Source of the DNA: Clostridiales bacterium
GTDB taxonomy: Bacteria; Bacillota; Clostridia; Lachnospirales; Lachnospiraceae
DNA: 32,221 nucleotides
NCBI GenBank assembly: GCA_021202175.1
Contig: JAJQDO010000334.1
Span: 1 to 32,221, forward strand
Direction: 5' to 3'
Part shown: one piece after another, positions 3-22,956 of the stretch
How the letters are laid out: every line of letters begins with the position of its first letter
Position numbering within the stretch: the first letter of the stretch is position 1
Made by a program: the position numbers and the translations under genes
Notes under the pieces: generated by a model
Seen by the model: only the letters and a program-made list of their open reading frames with translations
Database searches by the model: none
Told to the model about the DNA's origin: nothing

Positions 3-1274
3 GAACCGACGGCTGCGGCGGTTGCTTACGGTTTGTATCAGAGGAATGAAAACAGTCAGTTCCTCGTGTTTGATCTGGGAGGAGGGACGTTTGACGTTTC
101 TGTTCTGGAATTGGACGATGATATTATGGAAGTTCATGCCGTGGCCGGAGATAATTATCTGGGCGGTGAGGATTTCACCAATGTCATCCTGGATACCTTC
201 CTGGAGGAACACGACATCGATAAAAATACTCTGACCGAAAAAGAGAGAATCTATCTTCGCAATCAGGCGGAGAAATGTAAATGCCAGAATAATATGGATT
301 CCTTCTATCGGATGCAGGCCGTTCGAAACGGAACGCATCTGGAGACGATCATCACAAAAAAAGAGTATGAAAAGAAGACGGCTATGCTGTTTGACCGCAT
401 CAAACAACCAGTACGCAGGAGCCTGTCCGATGCCGGCGTGCGTATTCGCGATATTGATGAAATCGTGCTCGTGGGAGGAACGACCCGTATGCCAACGGTG
501 CGAAAATTTGTCGGCAAGCTGTTTGGACGCATGCCGGATACCAGTGTGAATCCTGACGAGGCAGTGGCCCTTGGCGCCGCTATTCAGGGAGCGATGAAGG
601 AAAGGAAACGTTCTATACGGGAAGTGATTCTGACCGACGTCTGTCCCTTTACTCTGGGAACGGAAGTTTCTGTAAAGACAGAAGAAGGACGCCTGGAGAA
701 CAACCATTTCTGCCCGATTCTTGAACGTAACACGGTCATTCCCGCCAGCCGCACGGAGCGTTTTTATACGGTGTATGATCATCAGACCGAGGTGGAGATT
801 CATGTCCTGCAGGGAGAGAGCCGTTTCGCTTCGAATAATGTCTCGCTGGGCACGATTCGCCTGGATGTGCCGGACAATAAGGCGGGAGAGGAAGAGATTT
901 CCGTCACCTATACTTATGACGTCAATGCTTTGCTGGAAGTGGAGGCGAAAGTAAAATCGACGGGAGAGACGGTGACAAAGCTGATTCAAAATCAGGATTC
1001 GGATATGACTTTGGAGGAAATGCAGGCCAGGATGAAGGAACTTGCTCATCTGAAGATTCATCCGCGAGACCAGGAGGCCAACAAGGTACTTCTGCTCCGG
1101 GGTGAGCGGCTTTATGAAGAGACGACCGGGGAACTGCGGGAGCAGCTGGAAATGGTGACCAGGCAGTTTGAACATATTCTGGACAAACAGGACCCTGATA
1201 AGATCAGGGAGGCTAGAGAGGATTATGAGGATGCTTTGGACTGGATCGAGGAGGAAATGTGGACCGGCCAGTGA
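3..1274 (+). CDS. Hsp70 family chaperone (HscC/DnaK-like), 5'-truncated by the window edge
   Basis: Open frame continues upstream of the listed ATG: EPTAAAVAYGLYQRN..., then FDLGGGTFDVSVLEL, VGGTTRMPTVRKFV, NPDEAVALGAAIQGA, and the substrate-binding domain ERNTVIPASRTERFYTVYDHQTEVEIHVLQGE. These are Hsp70 signatures. Confidence 0.93.
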   Translation, partial: EPTAAAVAYGLYQRNENSQFLVFDLGGGTFDVSVLELDDDIMEVHAVAGDNYLGGEDFTNVILDTFLEEHDIDKNTLTEKERIYLRNQAEKCKCQNNMDSFYRMQAVRNGTHLETIITKKEYEKKTAMLFDRIKQPVRRSLSDAGVRIRDIDEIVLVGGTTRMPTVRKFVGKLFGRMPDTSVNPDEAVALGAAIQGAMKERKRSIREVILTDVCPFTLGTEVSVKTEEGRLENNHFCPILERNTVIPASRTERFYTVYDHQTEVEIHVLQGESRFASNNVSLGTIRLDVPDNKAGEEEISVTYTYDVNALLEVEAKVKSTGETVTKLIQNQDSDMTLEEMQARMKELAHLKIHPRDQEANKVLLLRGERLYEETTGELREQLEMVTRQFEHILDKQDPDKIREAREDYEDALDWIEEEMWTGQ

Positions 1275-1430
1275 CCGCAGGAACTGAGAACCTGTCGGGA
1301 CTGGCTGGTGATTGTAGGAATTGGGAACCTGTCGGAGAAGGCTGACACAGAGTATGGAAACTGACAGGCGATGGATATACGATATACCGGAAGAAACTGA
1401 CGCGCGAAAAGGAAATGAGGAAGGGGTATC

Positions 1431-1904
1431 ATGATTCCGACGACTTTATGCTACATAGAAAAAGAGGACAGCTATCTGATGTTGCATCGGATCGCGAAAA
1501 AGGTAGATATCAATAAAGATAAGTGGATTGGCGTAGGCGGGAAGTTCGAGGACAAAGAAAGCCCCGAAGAATGTCTGCTGCGGGAGGTCAAGGAGGAAAC
1601 GGGTGTGACGCTCACCTCCTATCGGCTGCGGGGCATCGTGACTTTCGTCTCTGATCGCTGGGTCACCGAGTACATGTTTTTGTATACGGCGAATGCCTAT
1701 GAGGGAGAGATTCAGGCCTGTAATGAGGGCACGCTGGAGTGGGTGCCGAAAAAGGACTTGTACCGCTTGCGTCTGTGGGAAGGAGATAAGATTTTTTTGA
1801 AATTGATCGCGGAAAATGCGCCATTCTTTTCTCTAAAGCTGTCGTATGAGGGAGATGAACTGGTCTACGCCGCGCTGGACGGAAAAACGCTGCCGTTGCA
1901 TTAA
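1431..1904 (+). CDS. NUDIX hydrolase (8-oxo-dGTP diphosphatase-like)
   Basis: Nudix box GGKFEDKESPEECLLREVKEETG; preceded by GAGGAAGGGG. Confidence 0.93.
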   Translation: MIPTTLCYIEKEDSYLMLHRIAKKVDINKDKWIGVGGKFEDKESPEECLLREVKEETGVTLTSYRLRGIVTFVSDRWVTEYMFLYTANAYEGEIQACNEGTLEWVPKKDLYRLRLWEGDKIFLKLIAENAPFFSLKLSYEGDELVYAALDGKTLPLH

Positions 1905-1952
1905 ATTGCAGGAGCGAGAGATTGGACGGTATGAGGTATGAATTTGAAACAG

Positions 1953-1995
1953 AAAAACGCTGCCATGGCATTCAATTGCAGGGGCAGCGTTTTTT
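1953..1995. terminator. Bidirectional intrinsic terminator between convergent NUDIX and ALDH genes
   Basis: AAAAACGCTGCC...GGCAGCGTTTTTT, 12-bp stem with a T-run on the right and an A-run on the left. Confidence 0.85.
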
Positions 1996-2033
1996 AATTA
2001 ATAACAAATGAAAATCAGTAACAGATGAAAGAT

Positions 2034-3422
2034 TTATCGCAAAAACAGATGAATCATCTTATCGTACACAGAACGATATGGCTGGTAGCGCATGGGGAGA
2101 TCGAGCCATGTTTTTTTGTCGACGATGCTCTTAGTATGAGAGAAGGTGTTAAATCCATCTTTTCCATGATAGGAACCCATGCCGCTGGTACCGAATCCGC
2201 CAAATCCCATCTCACTGGTGGCAAGATGAATGATGGTATCGTTGATACAGCCACCGCCGAAACCACATTCGGTTGTCACTCGTTTTGCAGCGGCCTTATC
2301 ACTGGTGAACAGATAGAGAGCCAGCGGATGTAGCAGGCTGTTGACCTTCTGTATCGCCTGATCCAGACTGCTGTAGGTAAGAACCGGCAATATCGGTCCA
2401 AACATCTCCTCCTGCATCACGGCATCATGAAACGTGATAACATCCAGAACAGTCGGCTCTATCTTTAAAGTGTCGCTGTCAGATTTTCCACCACAGATGA
2501 TTCTTTGGCTGCCTGTTGCTTTGATGAGAGAGCAAAGCCTTGTAAAGTGCTTTTCATTGATAATTTTGCCGTAATCAGGATTCGTCAATGGCTCTTTGCT
2601 ATATTGTTTTCGGATCTGTTTTTTGATTTCAGTAACCAGATCATCCTTTATCATGGCGTCGCAGTAAATGTAGTCCGGCGCCACGCAGGTCTGTCCGCAG
2701 TTCAGGTACTTTCCGAACACGATGCGCTTCGCCGCCAGCTTGAGGTTGGCGGTCTTGTCCACGATGCAAGGGCTCTTTCCGCCCAGCTCCAATGTGATCG
2801 GTGTCAGATGCGCGGAAGCCTTCCGCATCACTTCTTTGCCTACCGTTTGACTGCCGGTGAAGAAAATGTAATCAAAGTCCTGTTCTAACAGGCAGGTATT
2901 TTCTGCCCTTCCTCCGGTGACAACGGTGACATATTCCGGTGAGAAGCATTTTTTAATGATTTTGACGATGACATCACTGGTGTGCGGCGAGTAGGCGCTT
3001 GGTTTCAGGACGACTGTGTTGCCGGCGGCGATGGCGTCCACCAGGGGGTCTATGGTCAGCAGGAATGGATAGTTCCAGGGACTCATGATCAGGACCGCGC
3101 CATAAGGGGAAGGCTTTTTGAAACTCCTGGAGTGAAACTGGGCCAGTGGCGTGAGCACCGTTTTTTCTCTGGCAAAAGCGGGAGTGTGCCGGATCATGTA
3201 ACTGATCTCACTGTAGACAAGACCCGTTTCGCACATATAGCTCTCAAAGGCGCTTTTGCCCAGGTCGACACGGATGGCGTCATGAATCTCTGTTTCATAT
3301 TTTTTGATACATTTTCTTAATCTTTCCAGAGCATGGATGCGGTATTCAATATCCAGGGTAGCGTTTTTGTGGAAAAAGGACCGCTGTTTGCGGATAATCT
3401 GCTGAATCTGTTGTTCGTTCAT
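2034..3422 (-). CDS. NAD(P)-dependent aldehyde dehydrogenase family protein
   Basis: SPWNYPFLLTIDPLVDAIAAGNTVVLKPS, FFTGSQTVGKEV, LELGGKSPCIV, NCGQTCVAPDYI (catalytic Cys), EEMFGPILPV. Confidence 0.95.
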   Translation of the reverse strand: MNEQQIQQIIRKQRSFFHKNATLDIEYRIHALERLRKCIKKYETEIHDAIRVDLGKSAFESYMCETGLVYSEISYMIRHTPAFAREKTVLTPLAQFHSRSFKKPSPYGAVLIMSPWNYPFLLTIDPLVDAIAAGNTVVLKPSAYSPHTSDVIVKIIKKCFSPEYVTVVTGGRAENTCLLEQDFDYIFFTGSQTVGKEVMRKASAHLTPITLELGGKSPCIVDKTANLKLAAKRIVFGKYLNCGQTCVAPDYIYCDAMIKDDLVTEIKKQIRKQYSKEPLTNPDYGKIINEKHFTRLCSLIKATGSQRIICGGKSDSDTLKIEPTVLDVITFHDAVMQEEMFGPILPVLTYSSLDQAIQKVNSLLHPLALYLFTSDKAAAKRVTTECGFGGGCINDTIIHLATSEMGFGGFGTSGMGSYHGKDGFNTFSHTKSIVDKKTWLDLPMRYQPYRSVYDKMIHLFLR

Positions 3423-3552
3423 GTTGTTCCTCCTCGAACCTAGTCTGCTGAATCATTGGAAAGTAGCAAAATCTGCTTGTCTATTTGTCCAGCTACTGTA
3501 TCATTTTGTTCATTATATTCTATCTGAAAACTTATGTCTGGAAGCGAAAATT

Positions 3553-4755
3553 CTATTTTTTCATTACCATATAATAAAACTGTTCCAATTCTTTGGCATC
3601 CATTAATACCGGAACCGGATACAGGGGATTCGCCTCTTTATCCGCGTAGCGGGAAAGCTTGGGAATGTCCTTTTCCCGGATTTCTTTGATCGTCTCTCCG
3701 ATACCATAGCGCGTATTCATATCTTTAATGGCCTGGATGAAGATGGATGCACCCTCCGCGTCAGACATATCCTTGTTTGCGATTCCGGCGGCAATTGCCA
3801 GTTCATGAAGCTTTTTGTGAATACAGACTCCATAGGATTCCAGGACGAAAGGCAGCAAAACCGCATTCGCAAACCCGTGGGGTACATTGTAAGCACCTCC
3901 CAGAGAATGGGCTACCGCATGCACGTAGCCGACATAGGATTTGGAAAAAGCGCAGCCGGCATAATAAGCAGCTTCCAGCATCTTTCTTCTGGCTTTTAAG
4001 TCTTCCCCATGTTCTACAACCGTATCCAGATTTTCAAAAATCAGGCGTACCGCGATACGCGCGTCTTCCCGTGCTCCGGGTGTAGTAGAATTCCCGATGT
4101 AGGCTTCTACTGCATGTGTCAGAGCATCCATTCCGGTACAGGCGGTGATGAATGGTGGCAGACTTTTCGTTACCTTGGGATCGAGAACCGCATATCGTAG
4201 AATGTTAGGGAAATCATTGATGGCATATTTGTGCCGTGTTTTTGCATCGGTAATAACAGCGGCGATGGTCGTCTCACTTCCGGTTCCGGCGGTGGTCGGA
4301 ACCGCGATCAACGTCGGCAGCTTCGCGTGGACTTTCAAAATCCCTTCCATATGTGACAGGGAAGTATGTGGCCTGGCCACCTTGATGCCCACGCCCTTCG
4401 CACAATCGATGCTCGAGCCACCGCCAAAGCCAATGATAGCAGAGCAGTTATGCGCATGGTATACTTTGACTGCCGCGTAGACATTAGCTGTCGTTGGATT
4501 CGGCACGGTCCTGTCATAAATGGCATAGGAAATATTTTCTTCGTCCAGAGCACGTTCCAGTCGCTTAAGCAGTCCCAGATGGACGATGCTGCGATCCGTG
4601 ACAATGAGGACAGAGCGACATTTTTTCTTTTTCAAAACCTTTGGAATACCCGTCACGCTGCCGACAATCTTCGGATTACGGTAGGGGAGAATCGGGATGG
4701 CCATTTTCAGAACGGTTTGAAATGAGCGGCAGTATACTTTTTTGATTGTATTCAT
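3553..4755 (-). CDS. Iron-containing alcohol dehydrogenase
   Basis: GFGGGSSIDCAKG, AVPTTAGTGSETT, GMDALTHAVEAYIG, HAVAHSLGGAYNVPHGFANAVLLP metal-binding region. Confidence 0.95.
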   Translation of the reverse strand: MNTIKKVYCRSFQTVLKMAIPILPYRNPKIVGSVTGIPKVLKKKKCRSVLIVTDRSIVHLGLLKRLERALDEENISYAIYDRTVPNPTTANVYAAVKVYHAHNCSAIIGFGGGSSIDCAKGVGIKVARPHTSLSHMEGILKVHAKLPTLIAVPTTAGTGSETTIAAVITDAKTRHKYAINDFPNILRYAVLDPKVTKSLPPFITACTGMDALTHAVEAYIGNSTTPGAREDARIAVRLIFENLDTVVEHGEDLKARRKMLEAAYYAGCAFSKSYVGYVHAVAHSLGGAYNVPHGFANAVLLPFVLESYGVCIHKKLHELAIAAGIANKDMSDAEGASIFIQAIKDMNTRYGIGETIKEIREKDIPKLSRYADKEANPLYPVPVLMDAKELEQFYYMVMKK

Positions 4756-4825: not shown

Positions 4826-5010
4826 AATGTGTTATTACGTTGCGAGGCATAGTATCATGTCGTTATGCATGTTAGACAATATGTTGTCATAATGTTATTG
4901 TGTATTTATGTGTATTGTTATAACATTGTGTCTGTTGTAGATGCGAGATGGCAATCTATTTAAAACAATTTTGATGTTTATTATTTTTCTACGCTCATTT
5001 GATGAAATAT

Positions 5011-5724
5011 TCAGGCGACAAAAGCCTGTTTTCCAAAATTTGAGCACAGTATATGGTACTGTTTGAACTCGATTATATACAAAATATGGTGCTCAACAAC
5101 TATAGATAGGGCTTTTATCGGCCAAATCATGAAATGTATCTTTTTTTCGGATTTACGGTACATACTCGGCGTCATATGTGTCTCCCTTTTAAAAGCCCGG
5201 ATAAAGGTTTCTGTATTTTCATAGCCGAGAGACAGGGCGATATCATTGACGGTCTGGCTGGTGTTAATCAACATATGTTCTGCGCATCGAATGCGAAAAA
5301 TCCGTTTCCAGCTGTTGAAACCCATCCCTGTTGTAGATTTGATCAGCTTCGAACAATGCGACACGGAGAATCCGAAATGATCGGCAACCTCTGTCAGGGT
5401 AATATCGGCAATATGATCCTGGATATAGTTTATCACCATAAAGTTCTCCTGATGCGAATTTTGAATCGTAGAATAAGAAGATTCCAGTGTATCCCCATCG
5501 CCTTCTTTAAAATACTCGTCATCATTCATTTCATAGGAAATAATTTCCGGGAGAAGCTCCGGAATTACCAGATGACGGCGAATAGCATCCTCACGGTCTA
5601 CCTGTGCCAGAAATTGTTTTAGCGTAGCTTGGTTTTTGCTGGCATAATAATAATCTTTATAAAACTGTTCATCGTCATTTAATGAGATGAGTTGCTTGTG
5701 TATATCATGTTCCTGAGAATTCAT
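5011..5724 (-). CDS. AraC-family transcriptional regulator
   Basis: Two-helix-turn-helix AraC C-terminal signature: ITLTEVADHFGFSVSHCSKLIKSTTGMGFNSWKRIFRIRCAEHMLINTSQTVNDIALSLGYENTETFIRAFKRETHMTPSMYRK. Confidence 0.9.
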   Translation of the reverse strand: MNSQEHDIHKQLISLNDDEQFYKDYYYASKNQATLKQFLAQVDREDAIRRHLVIPELLPEIISYEMNDDEYFKEGDGDTLESSYSTIQNSHQENFMVINYIQDHIADITLTEVADHFGFSVSHCSKLIKSTTGMGFNSWKRIFRIRCAEHMLINTSQTVNDIALSLGYENTETFIRAFKRETHMTPSMYRKSEKKIHFMIWPIKALSIVVEHHILYIIEFKQYHILCSNFGKQAFVA

Positions 5725-5986: not shown

Positions 5987-7302
5987 ATGAATCAATCACA
6001 AAACGCGCAACCATTAACAAAAAGTTTTATCTACAGGCAGAGATTCGGCTACGGCCTCGGTGATTTTGCCTGCAACCTGATCTGGCAGGTCATTTCCCTG
6101 TATCTGCTGTATTTTTATACGGACATTATGCAGCTGAATGCCGCTTCTATCACTGCGATGTTTGTCGTATGTCGTTTCATCGATGCCGTTACAGATGTTT
6201 TAGTAGGATTTGCTATTGACAAGACGAAAACGAAATGGGGCAAAAGCAGGCCTTGGTTCTTATTTGGGGCGGTTCCGTTTGCGTTAGCTGCTTTTCTTGC
6301 GTTCAGCGTTCCGAACATTTCTCCGAGTGGAAAACTGGCTTATGCTTACGTAACTTATATCTTTTTATCCTTTATGTACACGGTAGTAAACATTCCGTTG
6401 GCTTCCATTTTACCGGCATTGACGGATGATATGAATGAAAGAACCGTGCTGGCAACCTGGAGAAAATTCCTTGCCTTCCTGGGTTCCACGATCGTATCTG
6501 CTACCGCTCTCACTCTCGTAGGATTGATCGGAAAAGGCAATGAAGCATTAGGTTTCCGTGTTGTTATGGGAATGTTCGGTATCATCGGCTGCCTTTGCTT
6601 CTTCCTGACGTTTGCTTTAGTTCGGGAAAATAATCTTCAGGAAAATGTAAAGAGTGCTTCTCTGAAAGAAACGATTGCTTCTCTGGCAAGCAACACACCA
6701 TGGAAATTATTCGCGCTGAATATTCTTTTATGTGGACCGGTTATTTTATGCAGTCTTCTGCGCTAGTGTATTATTACAAGTATTATATTGGAAGCACGGC
6801 CATGAGTTCTCTGGTGGCAACCATCATGACTATGGTGCCGATGGTAGCAAATCTGACAGTTCCGTTCCTGGCAAAACGATTAGGCAAGAGGAATCTGTAT
6901 TCGACAGCAGCCACGGTTCAGCTGGTTGGACTTGTAATCATCTTTATCGGAAATCTGAATACGACGATTATTATTGTAGGCGCTTTCATCTCCGCTTGTG
7001 GATATGGCGTGAAAGAAAGCATATACTTCTCCATGCAGGCCGACCCGGTAGATTATGGTGAATGGAAAACAGGCATTCAGGCGGCTGGCACCCTGTCTTC
7101 CGTAAATGGATTTCTGGGGAAAGTAGCACAGGCGGCAGCGGGTGGAATCTCTGGATTGTTGCTCGCATGGGGCGCTTACAGTTCCACAGCAACGGTGCAG
7201 ACCGCAGAAGCTCTTTTAGCCATCAAAGCGATGTATCTGTACATTCCGATGATTCTGTTGGTATGCTCGATTGTTACCATGTCATTTTATAAATTGGATA
7301 AA
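5987..7302 (+). pseudogene. GPH-family (glycoside-pentoside-hexuronide:cation) MFS sugar symporter, frameshifted near 6725-6732
   Basis: FGYGLGDFACNLIWQVISLYLLYFYTDI, DAVTDVLVGFAIDKTKTKWGKSRPWFLFGA are GPH signatures. Reading continues in another frame from 6700..7497 (MWTGYFMQSSALVYYYKYYIG ... FYKLDK). ATG 5987 preferred over the GTG at 5978. Confidence 0.85.
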
Positions 7303-8200
7303 CTAAGGCTGCAGGCATTGGCCAATTACGCGACGTTTGATAATGTCGAGTTAGTCAAACGCTGCCTCTACCTTTTTGCCGGCATGACGACGGAAGAAGG
7401 GAAGATTTCGTCGAATGTTTTCGTCAAACCGGAGAATATTCCGGATGATACTTTTCTTTATGAATACAGTCTGTTTTTTTATCTCCGTTCTCTATGATCT
7501 ACACCAGGCGCACCCGGATTTGGAGCTGGTGAAGGAACTGTATCCTACCTGCAAAAAACAGATGGATATTACCATGAGGATGTTCGATCAGGAAGGAAGA
7601 TTTCTGCCGGATGAGGAGTATCCCATATTTGTGGACTGGTCGAATGATTTTAACAAAGATACAGCCGGTCATGCAGAAACCATTTATGTAATGAAGCAAT
7701 TTATCAGCCTGGCAGAGTTGGCAGAAGAGAAGGAAAATGATAAATACAGGACATTTCTACAACGAATCGTAATATATGCTCGGGAAAGTCTATATGATTC
7801 GGAGAAAAAGTTATTTGTTACCGGAGATCAGGAATATAATATTGCCAGTCAGGTTTGGATGGTGCTGGCACATGTAATGTCTGAAGAAGAAAATCGAGAG
7901 ATTATGACTTCTATGGTGGATAATCTTTTTCCGGTGAAAAATATAGCGACACCTTATATGTATCATTGCATTGTAGAAGCTTTATATGAGGGTGGATTAC
8001 ATGAAGAGGCGACAAAACTCATGAGAGATTATTGGGGCAAAATGATTGATCTGGGAGCGGATACCTTTTGGGAAGCTTTTGACCCGGATGAGCCGGAATA
8101 TTCCCCTTACGGCAGCCCGATTGTGAACAGCTATTGCCATGCATGGAGCTGTACGCCTGTATATCTGATCAGTAAATATGGTACATGTCCACAAGTATAA
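7303..8200 (+). pseudogene. C-terminal half of a GH78-like (alpha-L-rhamnosidase-type six-hairpin) glycosidase, fused in frame to the symporter and frameshifted near 7463-7478
   Basis: LRLQALANYATFDNVELVKRCLYLFAGMTTEEGKISSNVFVKPENIPDDTFLYEYSLFF | ISVLYDLHQAHPDLELVKELYPTCKKQMD...FVDWSNDFNKDTAGHAETIYVMKQ...GADTFWEAFDPDEPEYSPYGSPIVNSYCHAWSCTPVYLISKY resembles the GH78 catalytic barrel. No N-terminal half is present. Confidence 0.75.
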
Positions 8201-9195: not shown

Positions 9196-10404
9196 ATGGG
9201 CAAAGAAATGATTGCAATGCTTCTTGCCGGAGGACAGGGATCCCGTCTTTACGCGCTTACTGAGAAGTTAGCAAAACCAGCAGTACCATTTGGAGGAAAG
9301 TATCGTATTATCGATTTCCCCATTTCTAACTGCGTGAACTCAGGAATTGACACGGTAGGTATTCTGACACAGTATCAGCCACTGGTGCTGAATGAATTCA
9401 TCGGCAATGGACAGCCGTGGGAGCTGGACCGTCTTTACGGGGGAGTTCACGTACTGCCGCCATACCAGAAGGCATCCGGTTCTGACTGGTACAAGGGTAC
9501 TGCCAATGCGATTTACCAGAATATCTCTTTTATCGAGAGATATGATCCGGAATATGTCATCATCCTTTCCGGCGACCAGATCTGCAAACAGGACTACAGT
9601 GATTTCCTTCGCTTCCACAAAGAGAAGGGTGCGGAATTCAGCGTAGCCGTTATGGAAGTTCCGTGGGAAGAGGCTCCGCGTTTTGGCCTCATGGTAACAG
9701 ACGAGAACGACAAGATTACAGAGTTCCAGGAGAAACCGAAGAATCCGAAGTCCAACCTGGCTTCCATGGGTATCTACATATTTAACTGGGATGTTCTGAA
9801 AAAATATCTGGAAGAAGATGAAGCAGATCCAGAGTCTGAGAACGACTTTGGTAACAACATCATCCCGAACCTGTTAAGAGACAAGCGCGATATGTACGCA
9901 TATCATTTCAGCGGATACTGGAAAGATGTTGGAACGATTTCCTCTCTGTGGGAAGCAAACATGGAAGTGCTTGATCCGGAACACAGCGGCATCAATCTGT
10001 TTGATGATGACTGGAAGATTTACAGCCGAAACAGTGGTATGACCGGTCACAGAATCAACCCTGGCGCTACGGTGGAGAACTCCATGATTACCGATGGTTG
10101 CCGTGTATCGGGCAACGTGAAGCATTCGATTCTTTTTGCTGGTGTTAAGGTAGAAGAAGGCGCTGACGTAGAGGATGCAGTTATTATGGGTGGCTCGATT
10201 ATCAAGAAGGGTGCCGTTGTCAAACATTGTATCGTAGCGGAGAATGTTGTTATAGGCGAAGGCGCACAGGTTGGTGCGATGCCGACAGAAGACGAGAAGG
10301 GCGTTGCCACGGTTGGCGCTGGCGTTTATGTTGGTGATAATGCGAAGGCTGGCCCGAATGCCATGGTTAGAAATAATGTAAAGGATGGTGAAGAACAATG
10401 GTAG
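9196..10404 (+). CDS. glgC: Glucose-1-phosphate adenylyltransferase, catalytic subunit
   Basis: [90 protein letters not shown]; preceded by AAGGAGG. Confidence 0.97.
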
Positions 10405-14801: not shown

Positions 14802-16202
14802 ATGAGTGGAGAAAATAAAGAAATGCAAAAGAAAGGAAATCCCCTTGGAGTAGAACCGATTCCCAGCCTGTTGGTTCAGTTCGCGATACCTAGCATTATC
14901 GCAATGCTGGTCAGCGCTCTTTACAATATCGTGGACCAGCTGTTCATCGGACAGGCTGTCGGGACACTGGGAAATGCGGCGACCAATGTGGCGTTCCCTC
15001 TTTCGACATCTTGTGTCGCTCTGGCTTTGATGTTTGGTATCGGTGGCGCGTCCTGTTTTAATCTTGATATGGGACGAGGTGAAAAAGAAAAGGCAGTCTA
15101 TTATATTGGAAATGCCATCACCTGTCTGTTTGGTGCTGGATTGATTTTGTGTATTTTTGCACAAATTTTCCTGACGCCGATGCTGAAAGTTTTCGGAGCA
15201 CCGGACGATGTTCTGCCTTATGCACAGGCTTATGTGCGAGTGACATCGATAGGATTTCCTTTTTTGATTCTTACCACAGGAGGGGGACATCTGATTCGTG
15301 CGGATGGGAGTCCGCGCATGGCGATGATCTGTAATCTGACTGGAGCAATTATCAACACGATTTTGGACGCATTGTTTGTGTTAGTTTTTGGATGGGGGAT
15401 GACCGGCGCGGCGCTGGCGACGATTATCGGCCAGATTATCTCGGCTTTTATTGTGATCCGTTACCTCCTTCATTTTAAAACATTGCCTCTGGGAGCGAAA
15501 CATCTTCGCCCACAGGGAAAATATGTGATAGAGGTTGCACAAATTGGCATGGCTTCCTTCTGCAATCAGATTGCCATGATGGTCGTACAGATTGTGATGA
15601 ATAATTCACTTACTTATTATGGAGCTTTATCTGTCTATGGAGAGTCGATTCCTTTGGCTTGCGCCGGTATCGTCGTCAAAGTGAATCAGGTATTTTTCTC
15701 GATTGTCATCGGAATTTCTCAAGGAAACCAGCCGGTGGTGAGTTTTAACTATGGTGCAAGAAATTATGATCGAGTGAGGAAGGCATATCGTCTGGCTATT
15801 ATTGCCGGGTCTGTCATTTCTATTATTTCCTTCATAGTGTTTCAGACATTCCCGCGGCAGATTCTTGCATTGTTTGGCACAGGGACACCGGAATATTTTG
15901 AATTCGGAACACGCTTTTTCCGTATTTATCTCTTTTTTGTATGGGTGGATGCTCTGCAGCCGATTACGTCTACGTTTTTTACGTCCATCGGTAAGCCGGC
16001 AAAGGGTGTATTTCTGTCTTTGACCAGACAGATTATTTTTTTCCTTCCGTTACTGTTGATTCTCCCGTACTTTATGGGCGTAGAAGGATGCACGTATGTG
16101 GCGCCGATTGCGGATTGCCTGGCAGCAATTGTCACGGTGATTATGGCGTTTCTGGAATTCAGGAGCATGCCGAAAGGAAATCTGTCCGTGTCGGAATCGT
16201 AG
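14802..16202 (+). CDS. MATE family efflux transporter
   Basis: IPSLLVQFAIPSIIAMLVSALYNIVDQLFIGQAVGTLGNAATNVAFPLST, GISQGNQPVVSFNYGARNYDRVRKAYRLA. Confidence 0.95.
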   Translation: MSGENKEMQKKGNPLGVEPIPSLLVQFAIPSIIAMLVSALYNIVDQLFIGQAVGTLGNAATNVAFPLSTSCVALALMFGIGGASCFNLDMGRGEKEKAVYYIGNAITCLFGAGLILCIFAQIFLTPMLKVFGAPDDVLPYAQAYVRVTSIGFPFLILTTGGGHLIRADGSPRMAMICNLTGAIINTILDALFVLVFGWGMTGAALATIIGQIISAFIVIRYLLHFKTLPLGAKHLRPQGKYVIEVAQIGMASFCNQIAMMVVQIVMNNSLTYYGALSVYGESIPLACAGIVVKVNQVFFSIVIGISQGNQPVVSFNYGARNYDRVRKAYRLAIIAGSVISIISFIVFQTFPRQILALFGTGTPEYFEFGTRFFRIYLFFVWVDALQPITSTFFTSIGKPAKGVFLSLTRQIIFFLPLLLILPYFMGVEGCTYVAPIADCLAAIVTVIMAFLEFRSMPKGNLSVSES

Positions 16203-22659: not shown

Positions 22660-22956
22660 TTAAAACATCAGTGTTTTTGTTGGTGATAGTATAGTATAAA
22701 AAGGAATTCCTTGCAAGATATAATAATCATCCAGAAATAATTCCCTGGCCACTTTCACCGCCAACGGAGTCACAATAGACATTTCATGATATCGAAACAA
22801 AATAGCAGTATTATAGCAGACAATCATTTCCTTCGTTTCTTTCCATGTTGGAGTGTTTGGCGGACACCTGTGACTTCTTCCGTATATACTGCATCCATAG
22901 CGACATTTATATACCATCCATGCAGCAGTAACAATTGTTTTAGGGTCAATCACCAT
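22660..22956 (-). pseudogene. DUF2284-like metal-binding protein, apparently truncated
   Basis: MVIDPKTIVTAAWMVYKCRYGCSIYGRSHRCPPNTPTWKETKEMI...VARELFLDDYY has the N-terminal Cys pattern; the C-terminal Cys-rich segment expected after the DDYY region is absent. The open frame extends upstream without an ATG to about 23139. Confidence 0.55.

Follow-up and report, generated by a model that had tools for sequence, protein, structure and literature searches.

A frame-broken symporter-rhamnosidase chimera in a Lachnospiraceae genome and its probable origin by internal deletion in a rhamnoside-uptake operon

Genes and gene remnants at the locus

The window analyzed here was a 32,221-nucleotide stretch of contig JAJQDO010000334.1 from a Clostridiales bacterium of the family Lachnospiraceae (GenBank assembly GCA_021202175.1). 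When the window was searched with protein profiles, the N-terminal half of a GPH symporter was found on the forward strand at positions 5987-6766 and the C-terminal half, ending in ...MSFYKLDK, at 6748-7302. The two halves matched positions 1-233 and 233-427 of PF13347 (MFS_2) with E values of 1.3e-56 and 1.2e-36, respectively, and were 85-87% and 84-87% identical to the symporters of the two relatives L005 and L006. The full profile of 427 positions was covered, but in two pieces, and the TIGR00792 gph model also matched the window symporter. Homology of the N-terminal half to its relatives persisted to approximately position 6730, after which the frame was lost and a stop was reached at 6766. 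The switch of frame fell within a T-run on the same strand (6730-6747), and no single uninterrupted symporter frame was found.

At 7303-7479, still in the frame of the symporter, lay the first stretch of a GH78 rhamnosidase remnant, which was 83-86% identical to the GH78 proteins of L005 and L006 and aligned with their residues 247-305 and 232-290, respectively. By itself this stretch gave no Pfam match. The GH78 homology switched frame in a second T-run (7476-7483) and continued at 7484-8200 to the natural C-terminal end of the enzyme with 70-72% identity; there the six-hairpin domain PF17389 (Bac_rhamnosid6H) was matched at 7484-8197, at profile positions 109-335 of 339 only (E = 7e-12). The initial annotation had described an in-frame passage from a GPH symporter into the C-terminal half of a GH78 enzyme, and this was confirmed by PF13347, TIGR00792, PF17389 and the alignments to L005 and L006. 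Both of the frame breaks it had noted were present in the sequence.

The second frame of the symporter ran stop-free across 7302/7303 into GH78, so the reading frame was indeed kept over the junction. No one reading frame spanned the fusion: the first stopped at 6766 and the next, 6700-7497, comprised the symporter C-terminal half and approximately 65 GH78 codons. Because the two frame breaks interrupt the fusion, the protein of approximately 740 amino acids that had been proposed is hypothetical and could not be translated from the locus as sequenced. The junction and the frame breaks were read from the assembly of one draft genome of 357 contigs.

A divergent gene for an AraC-type regulator was found on the reverse strand at 5011-5724, truncated and with an unusual C-terminal extension. 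Both ends of its product could be aligned with the regulators of L005 and L006; approximately 160 amino acids between were absent, with the junction near position 5500. Only the HTH domain was found by domain search, and the cupin/ligand-binding domain was missing, whereas the L006 protein contained both cupin and HTH domains. The araC remnant is overlain at its 3' end by a repeat of approximately 120 bp (5009-5128), which accounts for the odd extension. The ends of the repeat (GCGACAAAAGCC ... GGGCTTTTATCGG) are complementary, and a strong fold is predicted whichever strand is taken. Six further copies or part-copies, 76-127 bases long and 78-94% identical, were present on other contigs of the genome together with two short matches, and the copies checked (L055, L057 and L058) were intergenic. 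Searching Rfam gave no match, just two chance-level ones far under the gathering scores. The repeat has the look of a small, mobile, non-coding element. Elsewhere in the window, a 98-amino-acid open reading frame at 22660-22956 matched the DUF2284 profile at no more than positions 2-57 of 161, so that a further gene may be truncated or frame-broken here.

Intact operons in relatives and the missing interval

When the GH78 part was used to scan genome contigs, six relatives were found. In L005 and L006, two Lachnospiraceae MAGs, the full operon was intact and contained, in order, a divergent araC gene, a GPH symporter of 449-456 amino acids, an MFS transporter of 419 amino acids and a KoRha-type GH78 enzyme of 526-539 amino acids. 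The initial annotation had proposed comparing sister strains for an intact symporter followed by an intact rhamnosidase-type gene; in L005 and L006 both were present, but with the second transporter between them. The view that two neighboring genes had been joined must accordingly be amended, since the whole gene for the 419-amino-acid transporter is gone from the window as well.

After FYKLDK, the L005 and L006 symporters continued with QFPQIQKELEERR... and then stopped, and in their GH78 enzymes ...EDGPKRDRRLWLGD (KRDRRLWLGD) immediately preceded LRLQALANYATFD. In the window, FYKLDK was directly joined to LRLQALANYATFD. Since the two abut in the window and stand in separate contexts in L005 and L006, the deletion junction on the forward strand was placed at 7302/7303, exact within 1-3 bases, where symporter homology stops and GH78 homology starts. 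This agrees with the deletion near 7294-7304 that the initial annotation had proposed. The natural symporter tail of approximately 17 residues was missing after ...MSFYKLDK, and related symporters did, as had been supposed, end in a short tail different from the sequence in the window. In L005 the interval missing from the window measured 2284 bp, and in L006 it measured 2069 bp. The breakpoints shared at most approximately 1 base in these relatives, and within the window no repeated word of at least 10 bases was found at the junction.

By sequence, the nearest solved structure was KoRha, PDB 4XHC (E = 4.5e-135 with the intact L006 enzyme). In KoRha, Asp222 is the putative catalytic acid, Glu486 is the likeliest water-activating residue, and Trp226, Asp229, Tyr498, His508 and Trp510 surround the bound rhamnose (PMC4690510, whose numbering is used here; the chain numbering in the printed alignment is 20 higher). 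The deleted portion of GH78 included the start of the six-hairpin domain and the N-terminal domain PF21104, which a domain search placed at residues 37-178 in the L006 protein. The acid motif KRDRRLWLGD lay within the deleted part and the base motif TFWEAFDP was retained; of the pair of catalytic acid (Asp222) and general base (Glu486), the window remnant has kept the base and lost the acid. Judged from its sequence, the remnant would not be expected to have enzyme activity.

Other relatives were rearranged or reduced. On the Lachnospiraceae contig L008, positions 72-4297 contained GH78, an opposite-strand AraC gene, a GPH symporter and then a transposase-like gene in a rearranged order, and the second MFS transporter was absent from this stretch. 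In the same-genus genome G009, different deletions were found in the corresponding locus (L047:1959-3363, contig C106): a 110-amino-acid fragment from the end of the second MFS transporter lay beside a gene for a molybdate-type ABC transporter ATPase, and the GH78 gene had at least two internal deletions, one beginning just past LGDLRLQALA. A 711-amino-acid open frame in G124 (L033) was considered as a natural fusion and rejected, as its first 260 residues were an ordinary GH78 N-terminal region with no transporter.

Further copies and rates of change

A junction query of 93 residues was searched against 397 family genomes, one per species and including the genome of the window itself. The junction was crossed in none of the 396 others. 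Matches were obtained in 21 of them. In 20 the match was confined to the GH78 side (within residues 32-93), and in one it lay on the symporter side (residues 3-44). An intact fused frame in relatives would have spoken for a true fusion gene; it was found in none of these 396 genomes, and in L005 and L006 the genes were separate. When the DNA of the locus was compared with 60 relatives, G009 was matched at the GH78 end and G030 over a 50-base piece, with no other match. A plasmid collection gave no match. In the draft genome carrying the window, no second GH78 C-terminal half was found, nothing credible was found for the second MFS transporter (only a match of 24% identity), and the GH78 N-terminal half was not found in a search that had no positive control in that genome, although a full-length GH78 query matched relatives in 20 other family genomes. 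Nothing directly relevant emerged from the literature searched for fusion pseudogenes and for Lachnospiraceae rhamnosidase clusters.

Relative-rate counts with L008 as outgroup were used in place of dN/dS, pairwise dS being saturated. The GH78 remnant had 32 unique amino-acid changes compared to 15 in L005 (two-sided binomial p = 0.019), and 38 compared to 14 in L006 (p = 0.0012). The symporter part showed no acceleration, with 19 changes against 25 in L005 and 15 against 24 in L006. Among 33 columns invariant in 25 relatives, none was broken by the GH78 remnant. Since the symporter is not accelerated and no invariant GH78 column is broken, decay would be recent or partial. The rates fit a history in which constraint on GH78 relaxed once the deletion had occurred and the symporter broke later, an order that they do not prove.

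Origin of the chimera and comparison with known systems

We consider it highly likely that the locus is a pseudogene formed by internal deletion in a rhamnoside-uptake operon, that it is degenerating, and that the in-frame chimera is the deletion scar. The ancestral operon would have comprised an AraC regulator, a GPH symporter, a second MFS transporter and a KoRha-type GH78 alpha-L-rhamnosidase, with rhamnosylated glycosides as the probable substrate. Approximately 2.1-2.3 kb would have been lost from it, namely the last 17 or so symporter codons, the entire second transporter and the first 230-246 or so GH78 codons. The ends would have been joined with almost no common sequence and the frame preserved by chance, and the enzyme would have been destroyed by removal of its N-terminal domain, its catalytic acid and an active-site Trp and Asp. 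Degeneration appears to be locus-wide because, in addition to the two frame breaks, the ligand-binding domain of the regulator was separately deleted.

It is improbable that the cell has an intact operon and that the assembly joined pieces that are distant or stem from two strains, the frame breaks being sequence errors in T-runs. The genome is a draft of 357 contigs with an estimated contamination of 3.87%, and both breaks do lie inside T-runs, but with almost no sequence shared between the breakpoints and no repeated word at the junction there was nothing to mislead an assembler. Moreover, the missing parts were found on no other contig, other long genes of the window, among them 2034-3422, 3553-4755, 9196-10404 and 14802-16202, were each in one frame, and araC bears a second deletion of its own. 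A functional fusion, that is, a working symporter with half of GH78 as a cytoplasmic tail and frame breaks that are sequence errors, is very unlikely. The frame kept at the junction, the normal rate of the symporter part and the unbroken invariant GH78 columns would agree with it; the two frame breaks as sequenced, the acceleration of the GH78 part, the missing catalytic acid and barrel start, the absence of such a fusion from every relative searched and the truncated regulator argue against it. Because the symporter is unaccelerated and the remnant breaks no invariant column, a fusion expressed now or recently, as a working GPH symporter with a catalytically dead half-rhamnosidase tail, can be conceived should both frame breaks prove to be sequence errors, although we give it only the slightest chance.

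The fusion remnant is probably real but ordinary, a decaying pseudogene left by deletion. As such, it would be a clear small example of the loss of a glycoside-utilization operon in Lachnospiraceae, in which one deletion removed a transporter and inactivated an enzyme, yet left an in-frame junction that annotation could misread as a fusion protein. The findings suggest that the species of the window, and G009 via different deletions, have lost this route for rhamnosylated glycosides.

The intact L006 enzyme aligned along its entire length with KoRha, the two-domain GH78 alpha-L-rhamnosidase of Klebsiella oxytoca (PDB 4XHC; PMC4690510). In comparison with KoRha, the window remnant retained the counterparts of Glu486, Tyr498, His508 and Trp510 but had no N-terminal domain and no counterparts of Asp222, Trp226 and Asp229. 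Compared to the GPH:cation symporter family (TIGR00792, PF13347), of which the window halves together covered all profile positions, the window copy was frame-broken near 6740 and had its own tail swapped for GH78 sequence. In deletion-generated fusion pseudogenes, the intervening DNA is lost, two genes of one operon are joined and further frame breaks accumulate. The window locus resembles them with no notable difference; the frame at its junction happens to survive.
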